The position numbers and the translations under genes are program-made. 56,871 nt of DNA from Candidatus Hydrogenedentota bacterium. Lineage in GTDB: Bacteria; Hydrogenedentota; Hydrogenedentia; Hydrogenedentales; JAEUWI01. Below the pieces are notes generated by a model that was not told the DNA's origin, made no database searches, and worked only from the letters and a program-made list of their open reading frames with translations. The stretch spans positions 1 through 56,871 of the forward strand of contig JACPGE010000067.1 of NCBI GenBank assembly GCA_016182605.1, written 5' to 3'. This document shows positions 9,216 through 47,891 of the stretch, piece after piece. Each line of letters begins with the position of its first letter. Within the stretch, counting starts at the first letter, position 1.

Positions 9216-9440
9216 CTCATCCGCGTTCATCCGCGTCCATCCGTGGTTCGATTCTTCCCCCAATCCGCTGCGAAAATCCGCGCCCTCTGCGGACGCTCCG
9301 TCTCCTCCTCTCACCCTCCCCATTCGAGTGCATTGGCGTTCATTCGTGGTTCGCTCCAATACACGCGAACAAAGATCAAGCACACACCAAACCCAAGTCC
9401 CGCTTTGCGTCCTTGACGTCCTTTGCGCCTTCGCGTTAAT
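9216..9440 (-). repeat. Dispersed intergenic repeat giving HGWTRMNAD-type peptides
   Basis: CCGCGTTCATCCGCGTCCAT with CCGTGGTTCG (9216-9250) reads NHGWTRMNADE on the minus strand. CATTGGCGTTCATTCGTGGT (9331-9350) and CGTCCTTGACGTCCTTTGCG (about 9409-9428), followed by CCTTCGCG, read in a similar style (NAKAQR...). Such peptides turn up as spurious ORFs in many environmental Planctomycete- or Lentisphaerae-like genomes. This is recalled from general experience, not searched. They are treated here as a repeat, not a gene. Confidence 0.6.
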
Positions 9441-9678
9441 CCCCTCCCCGGGATCGCCGAGTCGCACTCGGCTTTGATCCCCCGCATCTTTCCGTACCGC
9501 GATGCCGCGCCACGCCCTTCGGGCCATTCGCACTCAAAGCCCCCTCCCCCCGCCCATTCCCGCCAAAACTTGCACCAAAGACCCCAAAAAAGCCATCATT
9601 TAGCCTTCCTGGACGCCCCTTCCCGCCCATGGTGCAGGCGCGCGGGCCGATTCCAACGCACCAAGGAACCCCACCATC

Positions 9679-12600: not shown

Positions 12601-13065
12601 GGCGGCATCCTCGCAAAGTGCGACGCTGCCGCCGCCTGCCAGGCCCTGCAGGACGGCCCGCTCAAGATCGAACTCAACGGCGAAACGGTGGAACTCACTT
12701 CGGAAGAAGTCGAGGTGCGCCTCAGCGCAAAAGAGGGTTTCGCCGCCGCACAGGGCAAGCACATGGTCGTCGTGCTCTCCACCGAGATCACCGAAGCCCT
12801 CCACCGCGAAGGACTCGTCCGCGAATTCATCCGCTGCGTCCAGGAAATCCGCAAAGATCAGGGCCTCGCCTACGACGCCCGCATCGACGTGGCCGTTTCG
12901 ACAGAGGACGCGCTGCTCAAGAGCGTGGTCGAAGAATTCCGCGCCGTCATTGCCGGCGAAGTCCTCGCGGAAGATCTGGCCGTGGTCGCAGGCCCAATCG
13001 AAAACGCCAAACTCACCACCATCGAAAACAGCGAAATCGCCGTCGCCGTAACCGCCCGGAAATAA
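9679..13065 (+). CDS. ileS: Isoleucyl-tRNA synthetase, eukaryote-like (type 2)
   Basis: A complete 1128-residue class Ia synthetase that charges tRNA-Ile. The HIGH signature appears as His59-Pro-Gly-His62 (GLPHPGH) and the KMSKS loop as KLSKR at 650-654. A large CP1 editing domain lies between them, with the GTGIVHMAPAFGEDDY motif that hydrolyses Val-tRNA. The C-terminus has the anticodon-binding domain followed by a long extension (about residues 900-1128), which replaces the zinc-finger tail of ordinary bacterial enzymes. That layout and length mark the eukaryote-like type, which in other bacteria gives natural resistance to mupirocin. It has AAGGAA before the ATG. Only one ileS is visible here; a second elsewhere cannot be excluded. 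Confidence 0.97.
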   Translation: MSTSPFSPVPSPFSFSAAEKDIIAFWKEHQTYHRSLAARKDAPRFVFYEGPPTANGLPHPGHCLTRTIKDIFPRYKTMDGFYCERKAGWDTHGLPVEVEVCKELGILDGGKEAIEAFGIEKFNRTCIESVFRYQKQWEELTDRIGFWVDLDQAYVTYHQSYVESVWWALKRLFDRGLLYQGHKVVWWWAQGGTALSAGEVGEGYRDTDDPAITVRLRLTAASKDQLGIQGPASLLVWTTTPWTLSSNCAACVGLDIEYAVVKHTVDEGEECLIVAASLVEKTFGEGAQIVDILKGSELVGLAYDPIFRYDTPVKMEGDGASTKHWVIIAGDFVDLETGTGIVHMAPAFGEDDYRVCKSLGVGILCFVKPDGAFDARVTDVDPFDKTPIAGQFCKAADKGIVRILKDKGVLFKQAQYRHAYPFCPRAENDPLIQYARKSWFIKTSQFKDEFLANNKEIFWRPEHIRDGRFGNFLENNVDWALSRERYWGTPLPVWICESTGHMECVSSYAELMAKTDIQGAEVWAQAKAAEPNLSDHLKVHKPYIDAVTYQSPKDPAARMRRVTEVIDVWFDAGCMPFAQWGYPHLPGSKAMFDDRFPADFISEAIDQTRGWFNALLVISTIVHREQNGAWPHPFKNCICLGHILGEDGTKLSKRLKNYSEPAILFEKYSADALRWSFIAKNPPTSSTRLSDRIVEESQRELLMTWYNVYSFFVIYASLDGFDPASAPLEFLKEMAGDPAALNAAAAAGKAAFRAPAARGELDRWILNELDRTILDVREAMDRYDSYPAARAITGFIDSLSNWYVRRSRARFWASEWTQDKADAYWTLYTALLRLARLCAPFTPFFSEVTWRNLTQALPGAAESVHLAPYPVADAATLDRELLEAMEITREAVNLGLSARRTENLKVRQPLGECDLVVSNPAHRASLQAHLPLIQEELNIKIINFTDRPGDYVSYQIKPNFKVLGPRFGKQVQAIGGILAKCDAAAACQALQDGPLKIELNGETVELTSEEVEVRLSAKEGFAAAQGKHMVVVLSTEITEALHREGLVREFIRCVQEIRKDQGLAYDARIDVAVSTEDALLKSVVEEFRAVIAGEVLAEDLAVVAGPIENAKLTTIENSEIAVAVTARK

Positions 13066-13191
13066 CGGAACCGCAACACACCGGCGTGCCCGCCCAGCTT
13101 TATATCGTTCCCGCGGCCCCCCTCCCGCATTGTGCCACACGATTGCGCGAAACGCGCATTCGTGGTACGCCGCATGAACGGCCCAAACCCA

Positions 13192-23347: not shown

Positions 23348-23490
23348 GGCGATGGGTGCACTCCTTGCCCGTGTCTTCCACAATCGCCAGTGTATCAGGG
23401 CGCCCAAGAAGGCTGCAAAGCCCCGCATCGGCTGTCTTTTTGCCGCTCCCACCCGCTACAATGCGGCGCAAACAGGGCCAATTCACGTCA

Positions 23491-25086
23491 ATGGGCAGTA
23501 TGGACACACCGGAACACACCGAAAAGAACCCCGTTTCCCCGGGTGCCGCCTTCTGGGGGGTGCTGGCCGTCGCCGCCTGCCTGCGCCTCTACGCGCTCGG
23601 CCGCCACGCGCTGTGGTACGACGAGGGTGCAAGCGTTTTCCTCGCGCGCTACGTGGACCTGCACGGCTCCCTCTTCCGCTCCGAGTTCACCACCGAGCCG
23701 CCCATGATGGCCATCCTCTCCTGGATCTGGCAGGGCCTGCTTTCGCCGCTGCCGATCAGCCGCATCTCCTGGGAGCACGATGCCGCCCTGCGTCTCCTCC
23801 CCGCGGGTTTTGGGCTGGCCTCCGTCGCCTGCGTCTACTTTGGGGCGCACGCGCTCCTGCACGATCGCCGCGCCGCACTCGGTGCCATGGCCGCAGTCGC
23901 CGTGGCCCCCCTGCAAATCTACTACGCCCAAGAGTTCCGCATCTATACCTTCTATGTCTTGCTGGCCCTGCTGGCCTCGGGCTGCATGATCCGCGCCGTC
24001 GAATCCGGAGAACGGAAATACTGGATCGGCATGGTGGCCTGCCTGACCATCCTCATGTACAGCCATTTCATCAGCATGTTTCTCATCTTCACCCTGAATG
24101 CCGCATTCGTACTGGCCCTCCCCTGGCACTACCGCCAACTCCGCCCCTGGTTCCTGTGGAACCTCCTCCTGATGCTCCTAATCGCGCCGGCCCTCTACCT
24201 CGCATTTCGCATGCAGGGCCACGTGGACACCCAGACCATCCCGTGGTATCCCCCGCCCACCTGGAAGACGGCGCTGGTCACCGCCAAAATCTTTTTCGCC
24301 GCCTACACCCCGCGTGCCTGGGCCTACTGGCCGCTCTTCCTCCTGGGGCTCGCCGGCACAGGCTGGGGACTCTTCTCCCTGCGCCAGCGCCCCTTGCTCG
24401 CCCTCACCGCGCTCGCGCTCGTCGCCGTGCCGGTCACGCTGGGCCTGCTCATCTGGGGACGCGCCCACTTCTCCTTCTATGAGCACCGCCTCTTCCTCTA
24501 CTCGGGAACCGTGGCCGTCCTCCTCTGCGGTATCGGCCTGGCCCGGCTGCCCCGCCTCCCGGCCATGGGCCTCTCCGCCCTCGCGCTGGTCTTTGTGCTG
24601 CCCTGCCTGAACGATGTCTACGCGCAAAACCTGCACCGCTTCCCCCTGCACAACATCGCCATGTGGGACAAGGTCGACTTCCGCTCCGCCGCCCGCCACA
24701 TCGAAGACCATTGGCAGGAGGGCGACCTCATCGCACACGTCAGCCACTTCGGCATCTACAGCATGCCCAGCTATCTCGACAAACCCCAGAAACGCCTCGG
24801 AATGGCGCCCAGCGATCTACGCTACATCGCAAAACTCATGGGCAATGCGCCGCTCCTCATCCATCATGACATCATGCCCGTGATGCTGGAAAAGGCCACA
24901 GCCGGGGCAAAGCGCCTCTGGCTCCTGCGCTGCTACGGCATCACCTTCGAAGACGTGCCCTATGGCGATGCGCTGCAAGCCCGCCTGGAACAAGATTGGA
25001 CGCCAGTCGAAACGCGCCACTACGACGGCGTGGTGCTTCGCTGCTACGTGCGCAAAGACGCGCAAAATGGGAGTTCCACACCGTGA
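23491..25086 (+). CDS. GT-C membrane glycosyltransferase (GT39/ArnT-like)
   Basis: This protein of about 531 residues has roughly eleven predicted membrane helices and a C-terminal soluble part. The conserved extracytoplasmic Asp-Glu pair is present in the first loop (ALWYDEGASVFLARY), as in protein mannosyltransferases and ArnT. The second loop carries TEPPMMAIL, the family's second acidic motif, and further on come AQEFRIYTFY and MYSHFISMF. These enzymes take sugars from polyprenyl phosphate and add them to proteins or lipid A on the periplasmic side. The start is uncertain: ATG at 23461, 23491 or 23500 are all in frame, and none has a strong ribosome-binding site. The stop overlaps the GTG start of the sulfatase-fold gene, so the pair is co-expressed. 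Confidence 0.82.
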   Translation: MGSMDTPEHTEKNPVSPGAAFWGVLAVAACLRLYALGRHALWYDEGASVFLARYVDLHGSLFRSEFTTEPPMMAILSWIWQGLLSPLPISRISWEHDAALRLLPAGFGLASVACVYFGAHALLHDRRAALGAMAAVAVAPLQIYYAQEFRIYTFYVLLALLASGCMIRAVESGERKYWIGMVACLTILMYSHFISMFLIFTLNAAFVLALPWHYRQLRPWFLWNLLLMLLIAPALYLAFRMQGHVDTQTIPWYPPPTWKTALVTAKIFFAAYTPRAWAYWPLFLLGLAGTGWGLFSLRQRPLLALTALALVAVPVTLGLLIWGRAHFSFYEHRLFLYSGTVAVLLCGIGLARLPRLPAMGLSALALVFVLPCLNDVYAQNLHRFPLHNIAMWDKVDFRSAARHIEDHWQEGDLIAHVSHFGIYSMPSYLDKPQKRLGMAPSDLRYIAKLMGNAPLLIHHDIMPVMLEKATAGAKRLWLLRCYGITFEDVPYGDALQARLEQDWTPVETRHYDGVVLRCYVRKDAQNGSSTP

Positions 25087-26486
25087 AGTATGTGCTGCCC
25101 CTCGCCCTGCTTGCCGGACTGCTCTTTCTCGCGCTCGGCTACATTCTCGGCCGCGAATCCACGCCCCAATCCCCCAACGTCCTGTTCATCACGATGGACA
25201 CGCTCCGCTCCGACCGCATCGCCGCCGTGCGCAACGGCCAGCCCGTCATGCCCTTTCTCTCGCGCGCCGTGAACGAGGGAGCCCACTTCACCCGCGCGAT
25301 CAGCCCCTGCAGTTGGACCAAGCCCGCCATGGCCTCCATCTTCACCGGCGTCTCGCCCGAAGCCCACGGGGTCATCTACACCAGCAAAAAAGACGCGAAC
25401 GGCAACGACGCCAGCGATGTGCTCAGTCCGGAATGGATGACGCTCGCGGAATGGCTCCGCGTCCGCGGCTACAGCACCTGGGCCTACATCTCGAACGCCA
25501 ACCTGGAAAAAAGCTTCGGCTTCGCCCAGGGTTTCGACGCGGCAGACTACGTTTACAAGAACGGAGCCTCCGCACCGGAAGTCACGGACGCCGCCCTCGG
25601 AAAGCTGTCGGCATTGAAGCCCCCCTTCCTGCTCTATGCCCACTATATGGATCCCCACTCGCCCTATACCCCGCCCGCACTGCACAAGGACGCCCTGGGC
25701 CCCTTTCCGCAAACCACCGCCTACGACAACACCCTCCTCGACAACCCGATGGAATTCATGCGCTACTATATGGACTGCGCGAAGATCATGTTGGGCCTGC
25801 AAGAGCAGCCCACGGTGCCGCCACTCTCGCCCGGGGGCCAGGCCGCCGTCGAACACCTCTACGATGCCGAAGTCCGATTCATGGATGAAGCAATCGAACG
25901 TCTCGTCACCGCTGTGCGCAAATCCCGCCCCAACACGCTCGTGGTCTTGGTCTCGGATCATGGCGAGGAATTCTGGGAGCGCGGCGGCATGGGCCACGGC
26001 ACCACACTCTTCCAGGAACAGGTGCACGTGCCCCTCGTGCTCATGGCGCCGGACATCGCGCCACGAAAGATAGATACCACCGTCTCCACCCTCGACCTCC
26101 TGCCCACGTTTGCGGCCTATCTCAAGATCCCGGGCCTGTCCCGTTGGGAAGGGCGCGGCCTCCTCGCACCCAGCGAGCCCCGGCCGGTATTCGCCTTCTC
26201 CAAGGCCTCCGAACAGGACCTGCAAGTGCACATCGACGCGATCTACGAGGACGGCCACGTGCTCATCCAGGATCACGGGCACGGGTGGGAGCGGCTTTTC
26301 CGGCACGAGACCGATCCCGGGGAACAGCAGGATATCGCCGCTTCGGATCCGGCGCGCGCGGCGGCCATGCGTGAAAAGCTGGAGGCGCACATCCGGCAGT
26401 CCCGCGCAGCGCTGAACGCCGTCGATCGCGTCGAGACGGTCATCGACCCCGCGATTCGCGCCCAGCAAAAAGATCTGGGATATTGA
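25083..26486 (+). CDS. Membrane-anchored sulfatase-fold protein
   Basis: This 467-residue protein starts at GTG 25083, overlapping the upstream stop as GTGA, with GGGAG nine bases before it. A single N-terminal signal anchor (about residues 4-22) places the catalytic domain in the periplasm. The alkaline phosphatase/sulfatase fold is shown by Asp39 in FITMDTLRSDR, VLVSDHGEEFWERGG and MGHGTTLF. The formylglycine consensus C/S-x-P-x-R is absent: the site reads SPCSWTKPAMAS, so Thr79 is the likely nucleophile, as in phosphoglycerol and phosphoethanolamine transferases. It is therefore probably a phospho-transferase or hydrolase acting on an envelope lipid or glycan, not a formylglycine sulfatase. 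It forms a two-gene unit with the GT-C glycosyltransferase and is convergent with a fusion carrying a related domain. Confidence 0.85.
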   Translation: MKYVLPLALLAGLLFLALGYILGRESTPQSPNVLFITMDTLRSDRIAAVRNGQPVMPFLSRAVNEGAHFTRAISPCSWTKPAMASIFTGVSPEAHGVIYTSKKDANGNDASDVLSPEWMTLAEWLRVRGYSTWAYISNANLEKSFGFAQGFDAADYVYKNGASAPEVTDAALGKLSALKPPFLLYAHYMDPHSPYTPPALHKDALGPFPQTTAYDNTLLDNPMEFMRYYMDCAKIMLGLQEQPTVPPLSPGGQAAVEHLYDAEVRFMDEAIERLVTAVRKSRPNTLVVLVSDHGEEFWERGGMGHGTTLFQEQVHVPLVLMAPDIAPRKIDTTVSTLDLLPTFAAYLKIPGLSRWEGRGLLAPSEPRPVFAFSKASEQDLQVHIDAIYEDGHVLIQDHGHGWERLFRHETDPGEQQDIAASDPARAAAMREKLEAHIRQSRAALNAVDRVETVIDPAIRAQQKDLGY

Positions 26487-26504: not shown

Positions 26505-29500
26505 CTATTCCACGTAGCCCAACGAGCGCAACTCTTCCTGCAAGGACTCATCGACCACGACCTGCCCCGCAGGCTCCACCGCGCCCTCCTCGCAAATGTG
26601 CAGGAAGTCGTTGATCGTCGTGTACAACGCCTCGCGCTGCACCTGCCACGCCGGGTCCTCCGCCAGGTTGTGCTGCTCCCCGGTATCCTGATCCAGGTTG
26701 TAGAACTCGAACGGCTTCAGATTGCGCTTGTTGCCTTCGTTCGCCTTGATCAGCTTCGTGGACGGCGTCCGCACCGATTGCAGCACGATCCCCTCGAAGT
26801 CGTTCTCCGCATACGAATACGCCGTCCCCACGTCCACCGGCTGGCCATCCGCGTCAAAAAGCGATTTGCCCTGCATCATCGGGCCCGGCTGCGCCCCCGC
26901 AAGCTGCAACAGCGACGGCGCGATGTCCAGACTGCGCGCTATCTGCGGGTTCTTCGTCCCGCCATGCGCGTTCTTCGGCAGCTTCACCAGATACGGCACG
27001 TGCGTCTGTTCTTCATACAGCGTGAGGCCGTGCCACCAGCCGCCATGCTCGTAAAACTCCTCGCCATGATCCGCCGTCAGCACGATCGCCGCATCCTCAT
27101 AAAGTCCGCGCTCCTTCAGCCCCTGAATGAAGCGGCCAAACTCCCGGTCGAACAATTCGATCTCGCCGATATACGCCTTCCGCATGCGATCGTGGTACTC
27201 CTCCTTATTCGGGTTCTCCATGCGCTTCCGGGCGTAACCGCCGTCCGGAGATTCGGGATCCATGTAGGGATCGTGCGGATCCATGAAGTGCGCGAAAAGC
27301 AGAAAGGGCGTGCCTTCGGGCGCAGGCTTCCCGTCAATCCACGACAACACGGTGTCCGTCACCACCGGCGCGGGCTGATAGTACTCTTCCACGCGGATCT
27401 TGCGTTTGATGGCGCGGTCAACTCGCGCGCGCGCCTGGCGCAGCACTTCGTACATCGACAGCTTGGACGCCGAATAGCTCGCGCCAAAGAGCAGGCTCGG
27501 CTTCAGATCCACGTACTCCACGAAGCCCTGGCCATAGCCAAAGATCGACGCGATGTTCGGATTGTTGGAATAGCCCTGCGTGTAGTAACCGCTCTTGTAA
27601 AGCTGCTCCGCAAGTGTTTCGACATCCTGCGGCAGGCTCGCCGTCTTCGTCGTCGCCGTGTGGCATTCCGGATACATCCCGGAGAAGATCGTGCCAAACG
27701 AGGCCTTCGTCCAGGATGCCTGCGAATACCCGTGCTCATACTGGATCGCGTCCTGTAGAAAGGCCTCGAGCTGCGGCGTCTTCGTCTCAATCGCCGCATT
27801 GTAAAACGGCAGGTAGTCCGCGCGCAGCGTGTCCACCGCTACGAGAAAAATGTTCGGGCCCTTCGCTTCCGCCTGGGGCGTGAACGCCGCTTGCGCGGCC
27901 TCCGGATGATAGACCCGCGCAAGAACCAGTGCCGCCACGAGCAGCAACGCCAGTTGAGCGGCGTAGCCCCCCGCAATCTGCGGCACACGGCCACGGGAAA
28001 TGCGCAGCCACACGGCGCCCAGAACATAGACCACCGCAAATAAGAGCAGCACGATGCCCAGTTCATAGCTCACGAGTTGGGCCAGTTGCTTGGCCGAGGG
28101 CATCATCTCCCCCAGCACATCGCGCCGGTACCGGAACAGCCCGATCGCCAGCCCGCCCGCCAGCAGTGTTCCCGCGAACGACACCGCATAGCTGATCAAC
28201 GGCGCGGCAAAGCGGTCGAGTAACAAATAGAAGAAGAGCAGCCCTGCGGCGGCGCCAAGCCCGGCCCCCGCAAAGAGCAGGGTATACGCAAAGAATCCCC
28301 AATGAAAGAGCCCCACTTCATCGAGGCCACTGAGCGTACGGGCGATCCAGGCCGCTTCGAGAATGCCGATGAGGGCGCCCGCCACCGCGCCTCCGAGGGC
28401 GCCGCTGCACAGGGTGAATAGAATGTTGTCTCGGTACCTGATCACCTCATGCGGCGCCAGATGAACTACCGTGCTCTTGGGGCGTCTGGCCGCTTCCGCG
28501 CGCACGGCCTCCGCATCGGCAAGAAGCGCCTCGCGGTTGGGCTTGTCGGTGAACAGCAGGAGCGGAAGGCTGATCAGGAACGGAATCACCTCGCCGAACC
28601 ACATGCCCAGATGGGCGAAAAGAAAGGCCTTGCCCGCACCGGCCGTGCCGCCGAGCAGCGTCGTCATGACCAGCTCGCGCACTCCCGCGCCGCTCACCGT
28701 GGGTGTGAAGACCGAAGCCACAATAATAAGCGGGCTCGCGAAAAGTATGTCCAAGAGGCCCGTGTTCGCCGCGCGTATGGCCGAAGCCGTGCCAAAGTAA
28801 ACCAGGCAGATCGCCAGATGCACGCACAGCCCGAATCCCAGCGCCAAGAACAGCGCCCCACGGTGCGCGCTGTACGCCGTCACCGCCAGGCCCACCTCGT
28901 TCACCTTGGTGCGCAAGAGGCCGGGCACCGGAAGAATGGACACCAGAATCTGGATGATGCGGGGCTGAAGCAGAAGCAGTATGCTTGTCGTGATAAACGC
29001 GCCCAGGGCCAGCAGCACCGCCGCCAGCACCGGCAGGTTAAAATTAAAGAGACGCAGGCCAAGCGGCACGGTGAAAAAGACCAGTGTAAAGAGCGCGATA
29101 AAGCCTGTGAGTTTCTCCACCGCAATCACCGTTGTACACTTGATCACCTCGCCGGTGTACCGGGAAGATTCCACCAGCCGGTAGCCGTCGAGCCCGAGGG
29201 TGCCCGGCGCCAGCAGCCCCAACGCGCGCCCCCAGAACCAACACTTGACCAGGTACCACGTGGGTATGTGTATGCCCTGGGCGCGCAAGAGTATGCGCCA
29301 GCGAATGACCCCGCACGATATGCCCGCGAACTTGATGAAGGTGGCGAAACCAAGCCAGAAGACCGCTGTGCCCAGGTCCAGATCCTCCGTGAACATGGTC
29401 CACAGGGACTGGGGCGAAATATTGTTGAACTTGTCCTCGGCGAAGCCAAAGGTTTCGGGCCGGAACAGAAGCACAAAAAGCGCCGCGACAAAAGTCAGCT

Positions 29501-29543
29501 TGAACAGGGTCTTGACGATAAGTAACAGTGACTTCTTCAACAT
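26505..29543 (-). CDS. Flippase-like membrane domain fused to a sulfatase-fold domain
   Basis: A 1012-residue polytopic protein. Residues about 1-330 resemble the lysylphosphatidylglycerol-synthase/UPF0104 (AglD-type) membrane flippase family, with APGTLGLDGYRLVESS and SGAGVRELVMTTLLGG at the expected positions. A second membrane block of about six helices spans roughly residues 370-545. The remainder is a periplasmic alkaline phosphatase/sulfatase domain with metal Asp571 (VDTLRADY), SQASWTKASFGT with Thr612 where a formylglycine residue would lie, MDPHDPYMDP, and TADHGEEFYEHGG. Thr612 suggests a phospho-transfer or phosphodiesterase activity. AAGG lies upstream of the ATG. It lies 18 bases from the convergent stand-alone sulfatase-fold gene and 72 bases downstream of lptG on the same strand. 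A lipid translocation and head-group modification role is inferred. Confidence 0.85.
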   Translation of the reverse strand: MLKKSLLLIVKTLFKLTFVAALFVLLFRPETFGFAEDKFNNISPQSLWTMFTEDLDLGTAVFWLGFATFIKFAGISCGVIRWRILLRAQGIHIPTWYLVKCWFWGRALGLLAPGTLGLDGYRLVESSRYTGEVIKCTTVIAVEKLTGFIALFTLVFFTVPLGLRLFNFNLPVLAAVLLALGAFITTSILLLLQPRIIQILVSILPVPGLLRTKVNEVGLAVTAYSAHRGALFLALGFGLCVHLAICLVYFGTASAIRAANTGLLDILFASPLIIVASVFTPTVSGAGVRELVMTTLLGGTAGAGKAFLFAHLGMWFGEVIPFLISLPLLLFTDKPNREALLADAEAVRAEAARRPKSTVVHLAPHEVIRYRDNILFTLCSGALGGAVAGALIGILEAAWIARTLSGLDEVGLFHWGFFAYTLLFAGAGLGAAAGLLFFYLLLDRFAAPLISYAVSFAGTLLAGGLAIGLFRYRRDVLGEMMPSAKQLAQLVSYELGIVLLLFAVVYVLGAVWLRISRGRVPQIAGGYAAQLALLLVAALVLARVYHPEAAQAAFTPQAEAKGPNIFLVAVDTLRADYLPFYNAAIETKTPQLEAFLQDAIQYEHGYSQASWTKASFGTIFSGMYPECHTATTKTASLPQDVETLAEQLYKSGYYTQGYSNNPNIASIFGYGQGFVEYVDLKPSLLFGASYSASKLSMYEVLRQARARVDRAIKRKIRVEEYYQPAPVVTDTVLSWIDGKPAPEGTPFLLFAHFMDPHDPYMDPESPDGGYARKRMENPNKEEYHDRMRKAYIGEIELFDREFGRFIQGLKERGLYEDAAIVLTADHGEEFYEHGGWWHGLTLYEEQTHVPYLVKLPKNAHGGTKNPQIARSLDIAPSLLQLAGAQPGPMMQGKSLFDADGQPVDVGTAYSYAENDFEGIVLQSVRTPSTKLIKANEGNKRNLKPFEFYNLDQDTGEQHNLAEDPAWQVQREALYTTINDFLHICEEGAVEPAGQVVVDESLQEELRSLGYVE

Positions 29544-29615
29544 GACTGCCTTCTAATTTCCGTTGTGCACCTGCGCGCGCCCCGCGGGACCAATACGCGC
29601 GGAAGCCGCCGCGCC

Positions 29616-30707
29616 TTAGCCCGGGGCACGCCGGTACAATATTGCGGCGAGCACGGCAAAGACCAGATTGGCCGACCACGCTGCGGCAACCGGCGGCAGT
29701 TTGCCCAACTGCCCCAGGCCCATGCTCGCGTAAAACACCAGAAAATACGCCAGCGCCAGCGAAATGCTGATGCCAAAGCCCACCGCCATCCCGCCGCGGC
29801 GCAGCCGCACCGCAAAGGGAATGGCCAGCCAGATCATGATGAAACACAGCACCGGCCGCGAAAACTTCGCGTGAAACTGCGCCCACTGGCTCGTCACCGG
29901 CTTGCCCTGCGCCTCCGCCAGCTTCAAATCCTCGTAGACCGCCGATACCGTCCGCGTGGTCACCGGAGCCTCCAGCGAAAACAACGCCTCGGGCGGCTCA
30001 TGGAAGGGCGCGGCCTCCTGCGTGATCCGGTGGCCCCCCACGTTCGATCCCGCCTGATCCGCCTGCTTGATGTGCCAGTAGCCATCCTCCAAAATCCACG
30101 CGCCGCTTTCCGCGTCCCAAAAGATCCGGTTCGCGCGTATCTCCTCCACCTGGTTCTCCCGGAACGCGTGTATCGAAACGTCCTGACCGGTCAGCGCCTT
30201 GCGGTTGAACTTCAGCACGTGGCACGTCCAGCCCCCTTCCAGATTGGTCCAGCTCTGCCCTTTCGACACCGGCTGGTCATAGCGCGAAAAATACTTCTGA
30301 TCGATCTCCTGCACCAGCTTCGTCATCCGCACCCCCGCCGTCTCCTCCACCACAAACGCCAGCACCATCATGAAAAACGCAATGATCACCGGCATCCGCA
30401 CCAGCCGCCCAAGCCGGATGCCCCCCGCCAGCGCCGCCGTGATCTCGTTGTCCTGCGCCGCGCGGCCAAGCACCAGCAATCCCGCAAGCAAAACCGACCA
30501 CGCCGCCGCCTGAAACGTAAAAAATAGCGTCGGAATATACGTCGCGTAATAAAGCGCAATGATGTGCAACGGCACGTTGTACTTCAGCACCTCCGTGTTG
30601 CGCGCCACCACGAAATCGATCAGCACGAAAAGCAGGTACAGCCCGAGCAGAATGCGCGCCAGCATCCCCAGCATGCGCCCGCCGAGATAGCGATCCAGTA
30701 TCGTCAT
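29616..30707 (-). CDS. lptG: LPS export permease, LptG-type
   Basis: This 363-residue YjgP/YjgQ-family permease has the family layout: three N-terminal helices (LGMLARILLGLYLLFVLIDF and following), a periplasmic jellyroll domain of about 170 residues, and three C-terminal helices. With LptF it forms the inner-membrane channel of the LptB2FG transporter that pulls LPS to the LptC/A bridge. The start ATG overlaps the stop of the upstream lptF gene as ATGA, so the two are translationally coupled. An upstream in-frame extension was rejected because it lies inside lptF. Which of the two paralogues is F or G is judged from order and sequence character, not from a decisive residue. Confidence 0.87.
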   Translation of the reverse strand: MTILDRYLGGRMLGMLARILLGLYLLFVLIDFVVARNTEVLKYNVPLHIIALYYATYIPTLFFTFQAAAWSVLLAGLLVLGRAAQDNEITAALAGGIRLGRLVRMPVIIAFFMMVLAFVVEETAGVRMTKLVQEIDQKYFSRYDQPVSKGQSWTNLEGGWTCHVLKFNRKALTGQDVSIHAFRENQVEEIRANRIFWDAESGAWILEDGYWHIKQADQAGSNVGGHRITQEAAPFHEPPEALFSLEAPVTTRTVSAVYEDLKLAEAQGKPVTSQWAQFHAKFSRPVLCFIMIWLAIPFAVRLRRGGMAVGFGISISLALAYFLVFYASMGLGQLGKLPPVAAAWSANLVFAVLAAILYRRAPG

Positions 30708-31831
30708 ATGCGATCCACCCGCCACAGGAGCGCGAAGCCCGCAAGGCAAAAGATCAGATTGGGCACCTGCATCAGCGCGATCGTTTCCACAAGCCCCGCC
30801 AGACCGGGAGGCTGCGCGAAATTGCGCAGGATAAAATAAAAACCCACGATCGCCACGCCGCTCACAAACGTGAACGAACGGCCGCCCCGTTGCGCGCGCA
30901 CCCCGATCGGCGCCGCCACAAACGCAAAGGCCAGGCACATCAGCGGAAAGCTCAGGCGTTCGCTCAACTCAATGCGCACCTTGCGCAGTTCCACCAGATC
31001 GGGAATGCTCGGCTGCGCGGCGTAACGCGCGCTCAGTTGCGCCTCGTCCTGCCGCAACGCCGTGAGCGTCTTGCCCTCCCGGTTCTCCGAAACGGAATAC
31101 GCCGCCAGCTTCGGCAGCGAAAAGGCCGACTCCTCAAAAAACACCAGGCTCTCGCCGCCCACCCCCACGTCGGAGTCGAGGTAGTGACCCTTCCTCAGCA
31201 GCAGCCGCGTGCCCTCGTCGCCGGAATGCAGCGCCGCGCTGTCCGCGTAAAACGTCCGCGTCTGCCCGTGCTCCAGCGGCATGAGCAGCATCACCTCGCG
31301 CAGCGCCCCGTCCGGGTCCTTCTTCCCGATGAATACGCGCCAGTCCCCAAACTCGTTCATCACCCCCGTCGGCAGCACATCGAACGTCACACGGATCGGA
31401 AGCTCATACTTCACCAGCCGGTCCACGCGGTGGTAGGCCCAGGGCCGCCCCTGATCCTGCACGAAAAAGCACAATCCGCTCAGCACCGCGCCCACCGCAA
31501 TCACCGGAAGCACCAGCCGTTTCAGCGGGATCCCCGCCGACTTCAACGCCGTCAGCTCGTTGTGATGCGCCATCTGCCCAAAGGTCAGCATGATGCCCAG
31601 CAGGTACGTCACCGGGATGATGATGCCCGCCATGGAAGGCAGGGAATACACCGCGATGCGGCTCAGATCGATCATCGAGAGCACAGCCTGCACCAGTGGC
31701 AGGCTTTCGAGCAGGTAATCCAATTGGTCCTGGATCGAAGCCCCCATCACCACCACGCAGATCACCACCGCTCCCTGGACCGCGGGGGCCCAGATCTGCC
31801 GCAAGACATAGCGGTTCGCAATGCTGATCAT
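30704..31831 (-). CDS. lptF: LPS export permease, LptF-type
   Basis: This 375-residue YjgP/YjgQ-family protein opens the operon. N-terminal helices (PAVQGAVVICVVVMGASI, PSMAGIIIPVTYLLGIMLTF) lead into the cytoplasmic loop ALKSAGIPLKRLVLPV, which contacts LptB in known structures. A periplasmic jellyroll follows, and the C-terminal helices begin with ELSERLSFPLMCLAFAFVAAPIGVR, cut here for length but typical of the family. It works with LptG. The ribosome-binding site before the ATG is weak. The presence of LptFG is the best evidence in the window that the organism makes LPS. The flippase-sulfatase gene downstream may be in the same transcript. Confidence 0.88.
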   Translation of the reverse strand: MISIANRYVLRQIWAPAVQGAVVICVVVMGASIQDQLDYLLESLPLVQAVLSMIDLSRIAVYSLPSMAGIIIPVTYLLGIMLTFGQMAHHNELTALKSAGIPLKRLVLPVIAVGAVLSGLCFFVQDQGRPWAYHRVDRLVKYELPIRVTFDVLPTGVMNEFGDWRVFIGKKDPDGALREVMLLMPLEHGQTRTFYADSAALHSGDEGTRLLLRKGHYLDSDVGVGGESLVFFEESAFSLPKLAAYSVSENREGKTLTALRQDEAQLSARYAAQPSIPDLVELRKVRIELSERLSFPLMCLAFAFVAAPIGVRAQRGGRSFTFVSGVAIVGFYFILRNFAQPPGLAGLVETIALMQVPNLIFCLAGFALLWRVDRI

Positions 31832-39112: not shown

Positions 39113-39244
39113 GCGGCCAATTTAGCCTTTAAAAGCAGCTGCTTGGCCGAAAGACATCGCTGCCTTCCAAGTTTGGCATGGGTATTGCTCCAACCTGACA
39201 ACTTTTTCCGGCGTGGATGCCATTACATGAGGAGAACTGCTGCA

Positions 39245-40657
39245 ATGTTCCAGAAGAACGGCCTTACGACGAGTCTGCCCAAAGTAGCGCGGGCCTTTGC
39301 CCTCGCTATGGCTGTGGCGCTGCCACTTTCCCTGTCCCTGAACGCGAAAGCTGCGGAATGCGCGGGCCAGTTCGGCGATTTCGTGTGGTACGACGCCAAC
39401 GGCGATGGCATACAAGACCCGGGCGAGCCGGGCATTGCCGGGGTGGAATTATCGCTCTACGATGCGGCGAACAACCTCTTGCAGACAACGGTGACGGATG
39501 CGAACGGGGCATACTATCTTTATTACTATACGGTGTGCGGGGAAAACTACAAGATTGTGCTGAACGAAGCGACCGTGCCGGCGGGGCTGGTGCCGACGCT
39601 GGTGGAAGCGGGCGTCAATACGGCAGTGGACAGCAACCAAAATCCCTGGATGGGGATACTTCCCTTGCCCGCGCCCGGGGAGAACTTCTCGGAAGATCTG
39701 AGCATCGACTTTGGTCTGGTGGACGAGCCGGAAGCGTGCACCGGCCGCTTCGGTAATTTTGTGTGGTATGACGCCAACGAGAATGGCGTACAGGACGGCG
39801 GCGAGCCCGGCATTGCGGGCGTGGAATTGTCGCTCTTCGACTCTTCGAACGCGCTGCTTCAGACGACGGTGACGGATGCGAATGGCGCCTACATCCTGGA
39901 GGATGGCGTCATCTGTGGCCAGACCTACCGGATCGAATTGAACCTGGCGACCGTGCCGGCCGGACTGGTGCCCACAATTCCCCAGGCCGTGGGCGATACC
40001 GCCTTGGACAGCAACCCGAATCCGTTTATCGCGGTGCTGCCCCTCCCAGCTCCCGGCGAAAACTTCTCGGAAGACCTCACGATCGATTTCGGCTTCATCG
40101 ACGAGCCCGGCGATGACCCGGATTATGACAAGTTCCGCACGCAGACCCAGGGCGGCTGGGGTGCGGCCTGCAACGGCGGCAATCCAGGCTGCTACCGCGA
40201 TGCCTGGTTCCCCGTGGCATTTCCAGACGGGATCGTGATCGGTTGCATCGGCAACAAGTACCTGAAGTTCACGTCGTCGCTGGCGGTGGAAAATTTCCTG
40301 CCAAGCGGCGGCAAGGCCTGCGCACTGAAAGCCAGCGCGGTGGACCCGGTGGGCAAGACCAGCGCGGGCGTCCTCGCGGGACAGCTTCTGGCCCTTGCGC
40401 TGTCCCTGGGCTTTGATGCCGCCGATCCGGATTTTGGCGCCAGTGACAGTCCGCTTGGAAGCCAGCTCCTCTGCAACACCGGCACCGCCGGCGATGGACT
40501 GACCGTGCAGCAAATCTTCGATGAGGCCAACCTCGTCATGGGCGGTTGCGGTCAGACCCTCGGCCTGAACGTGGACACCCTGAACACCTGCCTGACAGTG
40601 ATCAACGAAAACTATGTGGACGGAACAACAAACAACGGCAGCCTCTGCAATCCCTGA
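39245..40657 (+). CDS. Secreted SdrD_B-repeat protein
   Basis: This 470-residue protein has a signal peptide (about 1-35, ending SLNAKAAE). Two SdrD_B-type beta-sandwich modules follow, each with the signature FGDFVWYDANGDGIQD-like calcium-loop start, GEPGIAGVELSLYD, TVTDANGAY and a closing FSEDLSIDFG. The last 150 residues are a separate Cys-containing domain without family match. SdrD_B modules build rigid surface rods in Gram-positives; here a diderm uses them. No LPxTG, PEP-CTERM or other sorting signal was seen. ATG 39245 is chosen because TGAGGAG lies ten bases upstream; an ATG at 39227 lacks one. A terminator follows. The second gene is a close paralogue in its N-terminal half. Confidence 0.87.
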   Translation: MFQKNGLTTSLPKVARAFALAMAVALPLSLSLNAKAAECAGQFGDFVWYDANGDGIQDPGEPGIAGVELSLYDAANNLLQTTVTDANGAYYLYYYTVCGENYKIVLNEATVPAGLVPTLVEAGVNTAVDSNQNPWMGILPLPAPGENFSEDLSIDFGLVDEPEACTGRFGNFVWYDANENGVQDGGEPGIAGVELSLFDSSNALLQTTVTDANGAYILEDGVICGQTYRIELNLATVPAGLVPTIPQAVGDTALDSNPNPFIAVLPLPAPGENFSEDLTIDFGFIDEPGDDPDYDKFRTQTQGGWGAACNGGNPGCYRDAWFPVAFPDGIVIGCIGNKYLKFTSSLAVENFLPSGGKACALKASAVDPVGKTSAGVLAGQLLALALSLGFDAADPDFGASDSPLGSQLLCNTGTAGDGLTVQQIFDEANLVMGGCGQTLGLNVDTLNTCLTVINENYVDGTTNNGSLCNP

Positions 40658-41020: not shown

Positions 41021-42889
41021 ATGTTTGGCAGAATCAGCGGTGTGCGAGCAACAGCCCCTAAGCTACGGATCTTGCCCGTACTATGTGTGGCAGCAATATC
41101 ATCCATTGTTCCTCTGACGGCGAATGCAGTGGAGTGTGCCGGGCAGTTCGGCGACTTCGTCTGGTACGACGTGAACGGCAACGGCATTCAAGATTCCGGC
41201 GAGCCGGGAATCGAAGGCGTCGAACTCTCCCTATACGATCTCAACGATACCCTGTTGCAAACGACCGTGACGGACGCAAACGGCGCCTATTACCTCTATT
41301 ACTACACCGTATGCGGCGAAACCTACAAGATCGTCCTGAACGAAGCGACCATCCCCGACGGTCTGGTGCTGACCATCGTTGAAGCGGGCGGCGACCCCGC
41401 CGTTGACAGCAACCTGAATCCCTGGACGGGCATTCTCCCATTGCCGGCGCCGGGCGAAAATTTCACCGAAGACCTCACGATTGACTTCGGCCTCGTGGAC
41501 GAACCCGAAATCTGCTACGGCCAGATCGGCGATTTCGTATGGTACGACCTCAACGGCAACGGCCTGCAAGAATCCGGCGAGCCTGGCATTGAAGGCGTCG
41601 AACTCTCCCTGTACGACGTCAACGACGTGCTGCTGGGCACGACGCTCACCAACGCCGGCGGCAACTACCTCTTCACCGAGGGCGTGTTCTGCGGCGAAAC
41701 CTACAAAGTCGTGCTGGACGAATCCACCCTTCCAGTGGGTCTGATTCCGACGGTGCTACAGGCGGGCGGCGATGAATCCATCGACAGCAATCCCAATCCC
41801 TTCACCGTCGTGCTGTCCGTGCCCCCGGTGGGCGAGACCTTCACGGAAGACCTGACGGTCGACTTCGGCTACGTCGAAGCGCCGGAAGTGTGCGAGCCCT
41901 GCGAAGGCGGCGTCACCAACCTGACGCTCCAGTATCTGGGCAACACCATCAACGCGAAAATCGTGGTGAACACGCCCAATGGCGTGGTCTTCAACGGCAC
42001 GGTCCAGCCCGATGAAACCTTCAGCATTAGCGGCCTCGGGGCCAATGGCGTGCTGGGCGCGGAAATCTCTGTCATACTCAATTGCAAGCCGAAGACGAAG
42101 ATTCAGACCGGCTGCACGCAGCCCATCGGCCCGGGACTGATTGTGGGCGACTTCCTCGTGGTTTCGGGCACGAGCCTGCTGGGCGGCGAACTTTGCCCGC
42201 TCGATCCCGAAGGAGACGACTGCAAGCCCTGCGAAGGCAAGGTCACGGAACTCACCCTCGGCTACAACGGTTCAACCGCGGCCAACGTGGTCATCAAAAC
42301 CAAAATGGGCGTCACCATCTTCAGCGGCAATGTGGCTCCCGGAGACTCCATCTTTGTCTCCCCCCCAAGTGGAGAAACCACGCTGGGAACGGAAATCTAC
42401 ATCTACCTCGATGGATGCCTGAAGGCACAGTTCCACACCAGTTGCTCGCAGCCCATCGGACCGGGCTCGATCAGCGGAGACTTCGTCGTGCTGGACGGCA
42501 AGAGCCGCATCGGAGGCCTGTTGTGCCCCCCGTCGGACGATGACGGGGACGACGAAGGCGGCTGGGGTGGCTGGGGCGGCTGGGGCGGCGGATGCAGCCA
42601 CGGCTGGAACTGCAAGAGCAAGTGCAACACGCACAACAAGTGCGGCAGCAGTCACAAGGACTGTGACAAGTACTCCAAGTGCGGCAAGCACGGCAAGAGC
42701 GGCGACAGTCACAAAAACTGCGACAAGGACAAGTACAGCCAGAAGTGCAAAAAGCACGGCAAAAGCGGCGACGACCATGACAACTGCGACAAGGGCGGTA
42801 ACAATGGAAACAGCGGCTGCAACAACAACAAGAGCAACAATGGCGGCTACGGTGGAAAGACCCACGGCAGCTACAAGGGCAAGTGCTAA
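41021..42889 (+). CDS. Secreted SdrD_B protein with Cys/His/Lys-rich tail
   Basis: This 622-residue protein has a signal peptide ending LTANAVE and two SdrD_B modules (about 37-290) very like those of the upstream gene. Two copies of a module of the DUF7467 kind follow (CEPCEGGVTNLTLQYLG and CKPCEGKVTELTLGYNG, each ending IGPGLIVGDF- or IGPGSISGDF-like). After a Asp-rich then GGWGGWGGWGGG linker comes a tail of about 100 residues dominated by Cys, His, Lys, Ser, Gly and Asn, with CGKHGKSGD repeated. Such a tail could bind metal, cross-link by disulfides, or bind polyanions; none is proven. No sorting signal is evident. A strong hairpin follows the stop. Confidence 0.85.
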   Translation: MFGRISGVRATAPKLRILPVLCVAAISSIVPLTANAVECAGQFGDFVWYDVNGNGIQDSGEPGIEGVELSLYDLNDTLLQTTVTDANGAYYLYYYTVCGETYKIVLNEATIPDGLVLTIVEAGGDPAVDSNLNPWTGILPLPAPGENFTEDLTIDFGLVDEPEICYGQIGDFVWYDLNGNGLQESGEPGIEGVELSLYDVNDVLLGTTLTNAGGNYLFTEGVFCGETYKVVLDESTLPVGLIPTVLQAGGDESIDSNPNPFTVVLSVPPVGETFTEDLTVDFGYVEAPEVCEPCEGGVTNLTLQYLGNTINAKIVVNTPNGVVFNGTVQPDETFSISGLGANGVLGAEISVILNCKPKTKIQTGCTQPIGPGLIVGDFLVVSGTSLLGGELCPLDPEGDDCKPCEGKVTELTLGYNGSTAANVVIKTKMGVTIFSGNVAPGDSIFVSPPSGETTLGTEIYIYLDGCLKAQFHTSCSQPIGPGSISGDFVVLDGKSRIGGLLCPPSDDDGDDEGGWGGWGGWGGGCSHGWNCKSKCNTHNKCGSSHKDCDKYSKCGKHGKSGDSHKNCDKDKYSQKCKKHGKSGDDHDNCDKGGNNGNSGCNNNKSNNGGYGGKTHGSYKGKC

Positions 42890-43859: not shown

Positions 43860-43923
43860 GCGGAAGGGGAAGTGTGTTTCAAAAACGGGAAGACGCGGCG
43901 AGTGCGTGCGGGAGAATGCGGCC

Positions 43924-46266
43924 ATGCTTGGACGGCGTATGCTTTTGGTGTTGCTGGGCAGTTTGGGGCTGTGCGCGTCCCTTCCAGCGGAGGAACCCCT
44001 GGGAACGATCGCCTTCCGCCAGGCGCAACTGGATCTGGGGCACGATTTCCGGCTCATGTGCGTGGCAGCGCATCCCGATGACGAAGACGGCGCGAGCCTG
44101 GCCTACTACCGCAAAAAATACGGGGTGAAAACCTTCGCCATCATCGCCACGCGCGGCGAGGGCGGCCAGAACGAAATCGGCCCGGAACTCTACGAGGAAC
44201 TGGGGGTAATCCGCACAAAAGAAATGCTTGCCGCAGCCGGGATTGAAGGGGCGCAGTTGGACTTTCTCAACCTGCCCGAGTTCGGCTTTTCCAAATCCGC
44301 CGAGGAAACCCTTGGGGTCTGGGGCAAGGAAACCGCGATGCGCCGCATGGTGGAAAAGCTGCGGAGCTTCCGCCCGCATGTGGTGATCACCCATCACGGG
44401 CGCATGAAGGATCACGGCCACCACCAAGCCATCGGACAGGTGCTGCTGGAGGCCTTCGACACGGCAGCGGATCCCGCCGCCTTCCCCGATCTGTTGACGC
44501 CCTGGCAGGTGCAGCGCCTCTACATACGCAATTGGGAAGGCAAAGAGGCAGACGCCGCAATCCCCATCTCGGAACTGGACCCCTGCCGCGGCCAAACCTA
44601 TGCGGAGATTGCCGCGGATGCCCTGCGCGTGCATCAGTCGCAAGGCATGGGCTACTTCATCGAGCGCCTGCTCGCCCGGCGCCCGAGCGCATTCTACGAT
44701 TTGGTCAAGGCCGCGCCGGATACTGCCGGGGCGGCCCACACACTCGATGGGCGGCTGGGCCCCCTCTTCGACGGCATCCCACTCTTGGACGGCGCCACCC
44801 TGGACGCAATGGCGGCGAGCCCAGCGTGGCAGCTCAGCCGCAATCCCGCCGCCCCCGAAACCCTGAAGCAGACGGTGCTCGCGTATGTGGCTGCGGCGCC
44901 CCCCGGCACCGCGGAACAACACCGCGATGCCATGCGCCGCCTCGCGGCCGCCGCCACGGAACTTCGCTTGCAGATGAAGGCCGCCGACACCCTGGTGGTG
45001 CCCGGACAAGCCCTTGAGGTCTATGTCGAAGTGCTGGATTTCGGAACCCGCGACGCCACCTCCGCCCTGCTCCGCCTCACCGCGTTTGGCGTGACACTGC
45101 CAGAGGAACGCTTGCAGGTGGATGAGCAAGGCGCGCTGACGCACACCTTCCGGGTGACGGTGCCTGAACTGCCATACACCGTGCCGCAAGAAGAACATCT
45201 CTTTGCCCCAGACTTCCTCGCGCCCCAGATTGGCGTGGAGGCCCTGATGCAGTGCGGGGCAGCCCAAGTGCCCCTGACCGGAACGCTGCATCTGGACATC
45301 GCCCCAGCGGCCGATATCCGCTTCCCCGATGCGCCCTGGCTGGACCGCCGCGGCGCGCGGGATCGGGCCCTCCCTATCGATGTCCTCGTAAGCAACCGCC
45401 TCTCGGGCCCCGCATCCGCGGAAGTGACCCTGGCGGCCCCCGCCGGATGGCGCGTGGAACCCCGAATGCTCGCCCTGAGCTTTTCCCGCGAAGATGAAGA
45501 ACGCCTGGCACGCTTCACCCTGCGCCCCCCCGCGCAAACCCCCGCGGGGCGCGCGGACTTCACCGCGCGGGTGGAAATCCCGGGACACCCGGCGCGGGAA
45601 CGCGCTTCACGCCTGGAATCGGTGGATGTCCGCGTGCCCGAGAACATTCATGTCGGCGTGGTGCAGAGTTACGACGACACCTTTGTGCGCACCCTGGAAC
45701 GATTGCAGGTGCCCCATGATGCCCTTCGGCAGGCCAGCTTCAATCTCGAGTCCCTGCGCCAATACTCCAGCATCATCCTCGACATTCGCGCCTACCAGGA
45801 GCGGCAAGACCTCGTCGCGCAATACCGGGTCTTTCTGGACTACGTGGCCGGGGGCGGGACGCTGCTGGTAATGTACAACAAGACCTTTGAATGGCAGCCG
45901 GCCTTTGCGCCCTATCCGCTGCGCTTGAGTGCCAACCGCGTCACCCTGGAAGACGCCCCAGTCACCCTGCTGGCCCCCGATCACCCCCTCTTCCACATCC
46001 CCAACGAGATCGGGCCCGCCACCTGGGCGGGGTGGATTCAAGAGCGGGGGCTGTACTTTCCAGTCGAGTGGGACGCCGCCTACACCCCCCTCCTCGCGGT
46101 GGCGGATCCCGGAGAAACGATTCCCCCAGGGAGTTGCCTCGTGGCCCGCCATGGCCGCGGCATCTACCTCTATACCGCCCTCGGCCTCTACCGGCAGTTG
46201 CGGGAGTTGCATCCGGGCGTCCTCCAACTCTTCGCAAACATGCTCGCGCTCCAGGGGACGCCTTGA
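43924..46266 (+). CDS. Secreted PIG-L deacetylase with C-terminal accessory domains
   Basis: This 780-residue exported protein has a signal peptide (1 to about 22). The PIG-L/LmbE deacetylase domain follows: AHPDDED at 49-55 supplies zinc ligands His50 and Asp53, ATRGEGGQNEIG is conserved, and HHGRMKDHGHHQAIG near residue 157 holds the remaining His. PIG-L enzymes remove N-acetyl groups from amino-sugar conjugates. Next is a beta-sandwich (about 335-560) resembling NEW3/CARDB modules, then a C-terminal domain (VGVVQSYDDTFVRTLERLQV onward) like a GATase/ThuA fold. It probably acts on extracellular polysaccharide. GGGAG lies ten bases before ATG 43924; an earlier in-frame GTG exists at 43906. 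Confidence 0.85.
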   Translation: MLGRRMLLVLLGSLGLCASLPAEEPLGTIAFRQAQLDLGHDFRLMCVAAHPDDEDGASLAYYRKKYGVKTFAIIATRGEGGQNEIGPELYEELGVIRTKEMLAAAGIEGAQLDFLNLPEFGFSKSAEETLGVWGKETAMRRMVEKLRSFRPHVVITHHGRMKDHGHHQAIGQVLLEAFDTAADPAAFPDLLTPWQVQRLYIRNWEGKEADAAIPISELDPCRGQTYAEIAADALRVHQSQGMGYFIERLLARRPSAFYDLVKAAPDTAGAAHTLDGRLGPLFDGIPLLDGATLDAMAASPAWQLSRNPAAPETLKQTVLAYVAAAPPGTAEQHRDAMRRLAAAATELRLQMKAADTLVVPGQALEVYVEVLDFGTRDATSALLRLTAFGVTLPEERLQVDEQGALTHTFRVTVPELPYTVPQEEHLFAPDFLAPQIGVEALMQCGAAQVPLTGTLHLDIAPAADIRFPDAPWLDRRGARDRALPIDVLVSNRLSGPASAEVTLAAPAGWRVEPRMLALSFSREDEERLARFTLRPPAQTPAGRADFTARVEIPGHPARERASRLESVDVRVPENIHVGVVQSYDDTFVRTLERLQVPHDALRQASFNLESLRQYSSIILDIRAYQERQDLVAQYRVFLDYVAGGGTLLVMYNKTFEWQPAFAPYPLRLSANRVTLEDAPVTLLAPDHPLFHIPNEIGPATWAGWIQERGLYFPVEWDAAYTPLLAVADPGETIPPGSCLVARHGRGIYLYTALGLYRQLRELHPGVLQLFANMLALQGTP

Positions 46267-46405
46267 CCGGGCCTTCATTTTGTGCGCGCGCCGGCATTTT
46301 CGTGTGCTACAGTATAGCTGATAGCCTGCCCAAGGCGGGCACGGGCAGGGCAGCGCGAAAACAGCCCATGAGTTGAGGCAGATAAGAACCTGGCAGGACG
46401 CATCG

Positions 46406-47866
46406 ATGAGCACTCCCGCGGACGAGACTGGGGCCATGACTTCTCCCGGAGAGGCGCCCGGCGCGGTGGAAAACGGGCGCCTGCCCGGTTCCTCCGGCCC
46501 GCAACGCATCCTCCTGGTGGACGACGTGCCCGCAAATCTCTTCCTGCTGGAAAAGATACTCCGATCGCCGGACCGGGAACTGATCGCGGAGACGAATCCG
46601 CTCAAGGTGATGAATCAGTTGGCGGGAAAGAACACCGCAGTGGTCCTGCTGGACGTCGACATGCCGGAGATGAACGGCTTCGAAGTCGCCCGCCAGATCC
46701 GGAACACGCCGGAAACGGCGCACCTGCCAATCATCTTCATCACCGCGACGAGCCAGCACAAGGAAGCGGTCTTCCAGGGCTATGCCTCTGGCGCCGTCGA
46801 CTTCCTTATCAAGCCCGTGGAGGCGGACATCTTGCGCAGCAAGGTGCAGGTCTTTTGCGAACTCCAGGCGCGGGAGATGCAAATCAAGGCCCAGTACCGC
46901 GAAATCGAAGCCAAACACGAGGCGCTGCAACACGAAATAGCGGAGCGGGTCCGCGCGGAAGAAGCGCACGCGGAGAGCGAGGTGCGCTACCGCTCGCTGG
47001 TGGAACTGGCGCCCCAGCCGGTCCTCGTCCAGGTGAACGAGAGCATCGTCTATTTCAACCGGAGCGCCCTCCAAACCATCGGCGCGGCCGACGAATTGCA
47101 GTTGCTGGGCCACTCCCTGTCCACCTTCGTTCACATGGATGATTCCAGCCGCGTGCACCAGCACCTGAACTTTATCGAGCGGCGCGGAGGACGGGGAGAT
47201 CCGATCGAGGCGCGCATCCAGCGGCTGGATAACGAGATCGTGGAGGTGGAAATCCACGCCGGGTGCATCATCTACGAGGGCAAGGTGGGCGTGCAGATGA
47301 CCTTCGTAGACATTTCGGACCGCAAAAAACTGGAGCGCGAGTTGCGCCGGCTTTCCGAAGAGGACGCCCTCACGGGCCTGGCCAACCGCCGCACCTTCGA
47401 CAAGGTGCTCGTGCGCGAATGGTGCCAGATGATCCGCCGCCAGCGCCCCATCTCCATGATTCTCCTGGACATCGACCACTTCAAAAAATTCAACGACACC
47501 TATGGACACCAGGCGGGAGACAACTGCCTCCGGCGCGTTGCCCGCGAACTGGCGCGGATAGTGCGGCGCCCCGGCGATCTCGTGGCACGCTACGGCGGCG
47601 AAGAATTTGCCGTCATCCTCCCAGACACCGACCGGAGCGGGGCCTTTGCCGTCGCGGAACTGATGCGCCATGCGATCGAGTGCTTGGAGATCGTCCACGA
47701 GAAAAATGAGGACAAGGGGGTGGTAACCATCAGTCTGGGCGTGTACACGGTGCTGCCTGCCCGGGGCGATTCCTACGATGTGCTCATCCAGCATGCGGAT
47801 GACGCTCTTTACCGCGCCAAGAGCGAAGGCCGCGGCCGGACCTATATGGCGCCGGGGCTGGCGTAG
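46406..47866 (+). CDS. Response regulator-PAS-GGDEF diguanylate cyclase
   Basis: This 486-residue signalling protein has a receiver domain (about 32-155), with Asp39/Asp40, phospho-acceptor Asp83 in [13 protein letters not shown] and Lys in DFLIKPVE. A coiled-coil linker follows, then a PAS domain (about 190-305, [20 protein letters not shown] shortened), then a GGDEF domain with the active motif GGEEF at 397-401. RPGD at 388-391, exactly five residues before GGEEF, is the inhibitory I-site, so product feedback is expected. It should make cyclic di-GMP when phosphorylated and so influence attachment or matrix. No sensor kinase lies next to it. ATG 46406 follows AGGACG. Confidence 0.94.
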
Positions 47867-47891
47867 GCCGGCAAAACCCGAATCGCCCCCC

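Follow-up and report, generated by a model that had tools for sequence, protein, structure and literature searches.

A candidate lipid translocase-transferase in a single chain, with an MprF-type domain and a Thr-type sulfatase-fold domain, conserved in Hydrogenedentota

What is a domain of the lipid-translocase type doing in the same protein as a sulfatase-fold enzyme? The question is raised by a gene on contig JACPGE010000067.1 of Candidatus Hydrogenedentota bacterium (assembly GCA_016182605.1); the window analysed here is the whole stretch of 56,871 nucleotides. An earlier note on this DNA, made from its letters and open reading frames, had described one chain joining a UPF0104-type domain, a second membrane block and a sulfatase-fold domain, a description that the open frame and Pfam matches bear out. 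Indeed, we find that the joining of a translocase domain and a predicted periplasmic enzyme in one chain is real and conserved in at least three phyla. We favour, by a modest balance of the evidence, the reading that the product is a bifunctional inner-membrane protein, in which a lipid is moved outward and a phosphoryl-type group is then transferred in the periplasm. The gene and its parts are as follows.

26505..29543, minus strand: coding sequence of the fusion, 1012 amino acids, a single open frame with an ATG start (orthologues and two alignments)
28539..29543, minus strand: N-terminal translocase domain (residues 1-335), UPF0104/PF03706, MprF fold (Pfam, AlphaFold2, PDB fold search)
27912..28454, minus strand: five-helix membrane block (residues 364-544; AlphaFold2 secondary structure, loop hydropathy and charge)
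26613..27857, minus strand: alkaline-phosphatase (AP)-superfamily, sulfatase-fold domain (residues 563-977), predicted periplasmic (PF00884, SGSH_C, PDB fold matches)
27708..27710, minus strand: codon of Thr612, predicted nucleophile, aligned with the Cys of the sulfatase motif C-x-P-S-R and invariant in both alignments
27066..27071, minus strand: codons of Asp825-His826, predicted metal ligands, invariant in the orthologue alignments
27030..27032, minus strand: codon of His838 (His826 + 12), invariant in both orthologue alignments

From its N-terminus, the chain runs from a translocase domain of the MprF type through five membrane helices to a sulfatase-fold domain. The domain search proposed in the earlier note matched both expected families, PF03706 (LPG_synthase_TM) at residues 56-310 (E 5.8e-14, above the cut-off) and PF00884 (Sulfatase) at residues 563-884 (E 1.7e-40), and also SGSH_C at residues 835-977. 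The structure prediction of the full chain that it proposed (AlphaFold2, mean pLDDT 80.5) resolved the ‘second membrane block’ as five helices. A frameshift, a misassembly or a fusion private to this genome was ruled out by the single chain kept across genomes.

The N-terminal domain resembles MprF in structure more clearly than in sequence. The PF03706 score of the fusion is 52.7 bits against a curated cut-off of 33.4, while homologues in which the domain is a separate protein score 82-133 bits, and when the N-terminal domain by itself was searched against the PDB by sequence profile, nothing matched; MprF was recovered by fold search only. In that search, in which the domain was modelled alone (AlphaFold2, pLDDT 89.9, pTM 0.86), the top six matches were all MprF (TMq 0.54-0.64, probability 1.00), and the first match to anything else fell to a probability of 0.30. 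The Pfam scan of the fusion gave no match to PF09924, the GNAT-type aminoacyl-phosphatidylglycerol synthase domain, and the AP domain stands there instead. MprF is reported to carry lysyl-phosphatidylglycerol in two cavities (PMC8131360), and the Pseudomonas protein, PaMprF, scrambles many lipids promiscuously and with no energy source; its authors suggest that specificity comes from the fused enzyme (PMC11980842). They also cite a survey of fusions of the translocase domain to O-antigen ligases and glycosyltransferases (PMC11980842). In archaea, UPF0104 proteins have been linked with pathways of glycosylation (PMC5898192), and in bacteria with glycolipid operons (PMC12713373). From the modelled fold, we infer that the N-terminal domain would translocate a lipid.

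On which side of the membrane would the enzyme then act? The five helices of the membrane block span residues 364-403, 411-442, 448-476, 484-516 and 520-544 in the AlphaFold2 model, and are preceded by a linker rich in Arg and Lys (331-373). The pair Arg474-Asp475, conserved in two orthologue alignments, lies within a loop predicted to be periplasmic. Because an MprF-like core of even parity is followed by five helices, the C-terminal catalytic domain is predicted to lie outside, in the periplasm.

The label ‘sulfatase-fold’ given in the earlier note was right about the fold and wrong if taken to mean a formylglycine sulfatase. The formylglycine motif, Cys/Ser-x-P-S-R, is missing from the fusion, which has Thr612-K-A-S-F at that site, and every relative of the fusion that covers the position likewise carries Thr where sulfatases have the formylglycine Cys. 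In the canonical sulfatases encoded by this genome, the nucleophile site is Cys and the equivalent of His838 is a residue other than His. Five residues, Asp571, Thr612, Asp825, His826 and His838, are conserved in both alignments and are assigned to the active site by alignment rather than from a metal-bound structure. The fusion also resembles EptA and MCR-1 in the position of its Thr nucleophile and in having a His 12 residues beyond the metal-binding His; this spacing, found between His826 and His838, equals that of EptA (His453/His465) and MCR-1 (His251/His263) (PMC7576196). The Thr site and the His spacing favour Thr-type phosphoryl chemistry, as far as alignment can tell, and sulfatase activity as a first choice was ruled out by the Thr at the nucleophile position.

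Similarity to YejM raises the alternative of a sensor or regulator like YejM/PbgA, in which the AP domain would sense lipids and carry out no catalysis. The layout of membrane helices plus AP domain is alike, and the NCBIfam model of YejM detects a weak similarity (E 3e-7), but this falls far under the cut-off of the model and the whole predicted catalytic set is invariant across phyla, and we regard such a role as very unlikely.

The PF00884 proteins of this genome (L167-L195) fall into one Cys-type group, the sulfatases, and one Thr-type group. Tallying all of them as sulfatases would overstate sulfate-ester metabolism, and in such genomes generally the PF00884 matches include many Thr-type proteins that do not belong in a count of sulfatases.

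If the two halves work together, they should stay together, and their distribution bears on this point. We counted the fusion as present where a match reached E<=1e-100, either at full length or, in some genomes, cut by a contig end, and considered genomes as high-quality if at least 90% complete and at most 5% contaminated. The fusion was matched in 60 of 68 Hydrogenedentota genomes and in all 38 of the high-quality ones; the eight genomes with no match have a completeness of 85% or less. Identity to the fusion is 40-61% over the full length in most Hydrogenedentota genomes, some of the matches being contig-cut. One-chain fusions also occur in Fermentibacteria and in Myxococcota/‘Deltaproteobacteria’ loci, at 30-36% identity. 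Elsewhere the halves are separate proteins: in a Zixiibacteriota locus (L088) a PF03706 gene (7911-9098) is followed on the same strand by an adjacent membrane-AP gene (9140-11053), in a deltaproteobacterial locus (L100) a PF03706 gene and a PF00884 gene on the same strand meet at base 5553, and in L093 (LCP-89) two membrane-AP genes stand in tandem and a PF03706 gene is found two genes upstream of them, on the far side of a PHP-type gene. The earlier note had named homologues that are always two separate, unlinked proteins as an outcome that would overturn its reading; we found instead fused chains in at least three phyla and, in L088 and L100, split halves that are adjacent. Fusion in one lineage and adjacency in another is the typical mark of a functional pair, and the coupling of translocase and AP halves is well supported by this comparison of gene arrangements.

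In a tree of AP domains, the Hydrogenedentota sequences form one well supported group (100/99), in which a second copy from this genome is included; some rows labelled ‘none’ in this tree are contig-cut fusions, which makes counts of gain and loss unreliable. With its presence in every high-quality genome, the fusion is probably a core envelope protein of Hydrogenedentota. The second, diverged copy (G000:C83:81710-84412; L063:6615-9551) has 39% identity over the membrane block and AP domain, and its match to the translocase family is weak and under the cut-off. Membrane-AP proteins with no translocase domain were seen at L085, L086, L091 and L129, in recurrent, exopolysaccharide-like loci with an ExeA-like ATPase, a NusG-like factor, a response regulator, a PF01663-type gene and a glycosyltransferase.

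The genes kept near the fusion indicate surface-glycan assembly. In family-level group f5, the fusion is followed by genes for a UDP-glucose dehydrogenase and a nucleotide-sugar epimerase, with RmlC and GT2 genes nearby, and in other phyla the surroundings are of capsule or exopolysaccharide type, with genes for Wzc, Wza-like and CpsB/CapC proteins and priming glycosyltransferases, and PF01663 genes as well. The most specific partner is a 3'-phosphoadenosine-5'-phosphosulfate (PAPS) sulfotransferase (PF13469), found in 51 of 60 Hydrogenedentota genomes, nearly always in single copy and with invariant PAPS-binding residues. By comparison of coordinates, it lies within 2 kb of the fusion in 13 genomes (head-to-head in 12), spread over groups f1, f4, f5, f9 and f10, where the number expected by chance in genomes of several Mb is well under one. 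In this genome it is on another contig (G000:C35:56443-57447; L147:9414-10448), near flagellin-like genes, and outside Hydrogenedentota none was found near the fusion in the fetched loci.

This partner suggests a sulfuryl route, in which the cytoplasmic PAPS sulfotransferase would sulfate a lipid or a sugar linked to one, after which the N-terminal domain would move the product and the AP domain would hand on the sulfate or edit it. The head-to-head arrangement in several Hydrogenedentota families agrees with such a route, as does a precedent in Halobacterium salinarum, where the AP-superfamily ‘sulfatase’ proteins VNG1056C and VNG1057C are needed for sulfating a lipid-assembled N-glycan, that is, for adding a group and not for removing it (PMC11980604). 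No translocase or five-helix block is reported for these two proteins, which we set beside the fusion by description. We consider the sulfuryl route improbable: the linkage is confined to Hydrogenedentota among the loci compared and is missing in this genome, and where the chemistry of Thr-type AP enzymes is known, the groups they move are phosphoryl.

The phosphoryl-transfer reading that we favour would work as follows. The MprF/UPF0104-type domain would deliver a lipid to the periplasmic leaflet, be it a phospholipid that serves as donor or a glycan carried on a lipid, and the linker of five helices, being of odd parity, would set the AP domain in the periplasm. There, at a mononuclear metal site (Asp571, Asp825 and His826, with His838 nearby), Thr612 would become loaded with a phosphoryl-type group and hand it to an acceptor in the assembly of a surface glycan or glycolipid. 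MprF, the lysyl/alanyl-phosphatidylglycerol synthase-translocase, modifies its lipid on the inside and then translocates it; the order proposed here would be the reverse, with translocation first and modification outside, which would make the fusion a counterpart of MprF that faces outward. Transfer rather than hydrolysis, a phosphoryl rather than a sulfuryl group, and the identities of donor and acceptor are all points that we infer. A broader version, an uncharacterised class of single-chain ‘translocate-then-modify’ enzymes in the core of the phylum, with a dedicated PAPS sulfotransferase acting on a surface glycolipid both sulfated and phosphoryl-modified, is put forward tentatively, and we doubt that all of it will hold.

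Several observations weigh against this reading. The placing of the domains relative to each other is weak in the model of the fusion (pTM 0.63), and loop 471-484, predicted to be periplasmic, is rich in Arg, contrary to the positive-inside rule. The phosphoryl donor, our first choice, would be assigned purely by analogy, and the sulfotransferase partner could point to sulfate instead of phosphate. Taken as a whole, in sequence and in fold, the AP domain has its nearer relatives among sulfatases and phosphonate monoester hydrolases, with EptA and LtaS more distant, and the fusion scores only 18-29 bits on curated models of EptA/LtaS-type families, for which the cut-offs are 561-970. Given this overall likeness, a hydrolase instead of a transferase is possible: a phosphodiesterase or phosphatase in the periplasm would trim a lipid-linked intermediate after its translocation, or release it. 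The best solved-structure and fold matches of the AP domain in the PDB are indeed phosphonate monoester hydrolases and sulfatases, and PF01663 phosphodiesterase-like genes stand beside the family in L071, L088, L093 and L100. However, in its Thr nucleophile and its His at +12 the domain agrees with two transferases, EptA and MCR-1, and five-helix membrane AP proteins of known function are mostly transferases, although YejM has phosphatase activity. On this evidence we judge the hydrolase unlikely, although it is the most probable of the rival readings.

The earlier note had placed the fusion in the export of lipopolysaccharide (LPS), based on its neighbours in the window, which are the following.

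29616..30707, minus strand: lptG, upstream of the fusion (LptF_LptG, E<1e-59)
30704..31831, minus strand: lptF, upstream of the fusion (LptF_LptG, E<1e-59)
25083..26486, plus strand: stand-alone Thr-type AP-superfamily protein (Pfam; frame open from 24996)
23356..25086, plus strand: GT-C (PMT_2-like) membrane glycosyltransferase, in a unit with the stand-alone AP gene (Pfam)

The coordinates agree with that description: lptG is separated from the fusion by 72 bases on the same strand (29544-29615), and the convergent stand-alone AP gene, beside the GT-C gene, ends at 26486, 18 bases away. If LPS were modified by the fusion before export by the adjoining LptFG, we expected this adjacency to be kept in other genomes. 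It is not; lptF and lptG are present in all 40 genomes searched, but in no genome other than this one, wherever both were located, are they on the contig of the fusion, and they are absent from the 36 fetched neighbourhoods of orthologues, same-family ones included. For this reason the adjacency of lptFG in the window is most likely incidental, and the link to LPS export, despite the 72-base gap in this genome, becomes the least probable of the explanations considered. Lipid A or LPS could still be the acceptor with no linkage of the genes. The stand-alone AP and GT-C genes are likewise not conserved neighbours of the fusion in the genomes compared, and a link to their unit was rejected on synteny.

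The GTG at 25083, which overlaps the stop of the GT-C gene, is likely to be the true start of the stand-alone AP gene, and the overlap (25083-25086) suggests translational coupling of the two. A homologue of the stand-alone AP protein lies ∼9 kb from lptFG in a genome of the same family (G001:C14:145082-157408), and the lptFG/AP neighbourhood may be older than the arrival of the fusion there. Farther along the plus strand, at 39143-40657 and 41021-42889, two SdrD_B-domain proteins in tandem are probably secreted or on the surface, and long frames with no Pfam match (944-3265, 9436-13140, 43879-45588 and 46307-47914) are putative genes. A plasmid origin was rejected: the first 25 kb of the window matched nothing in a plasmid collection.

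How does the fusion compare with known systems? It shares with MprF the fold of the translocase (by structure search), the order of translocase, further membrane block and enzyme, and a Pfam family that also holds UPF0104/PplT. It differs in that its enzyme is a predicted periplasmic AP domain while that of MprF is a cytoplasmic GNAT-type aminoacyl transferase, and in having five helices after the translocase core where MprF has six. The five predicted helices and periplasmic AP domain resemble those of EptA, MCR, LtaS and YejM, but the fusion falls far under the curated cut-offs of these families and carries the translocase domain in addition. With type I sulfatases and phosphonate monoester hydrolases it shares the fold and the matches to the PF00884 and SGSH_C profiles, whereas, unlike type I sulfatases, it has Thr in place of the formylglycine motif and is integrated in the membrane. 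Both modules are thus already known, as are other enzyme fusions of the translocase domain; we found no description of this combination in the literature searched, where coverage of PplT-domain proteins was incomplete and absence is not shown.

If the proposed role is correct, the fusion offers a way to test whether a fused enzyme gives a promiscuous lipid translocase its specificity, in this case with the enzyme on the other side of the membrane. As every high-quality Hydrogenedentota genome carries the fusion, with a single-copy sulfotransferase as partner, it provides a good entry point to the envelope of an uncultured phylum.

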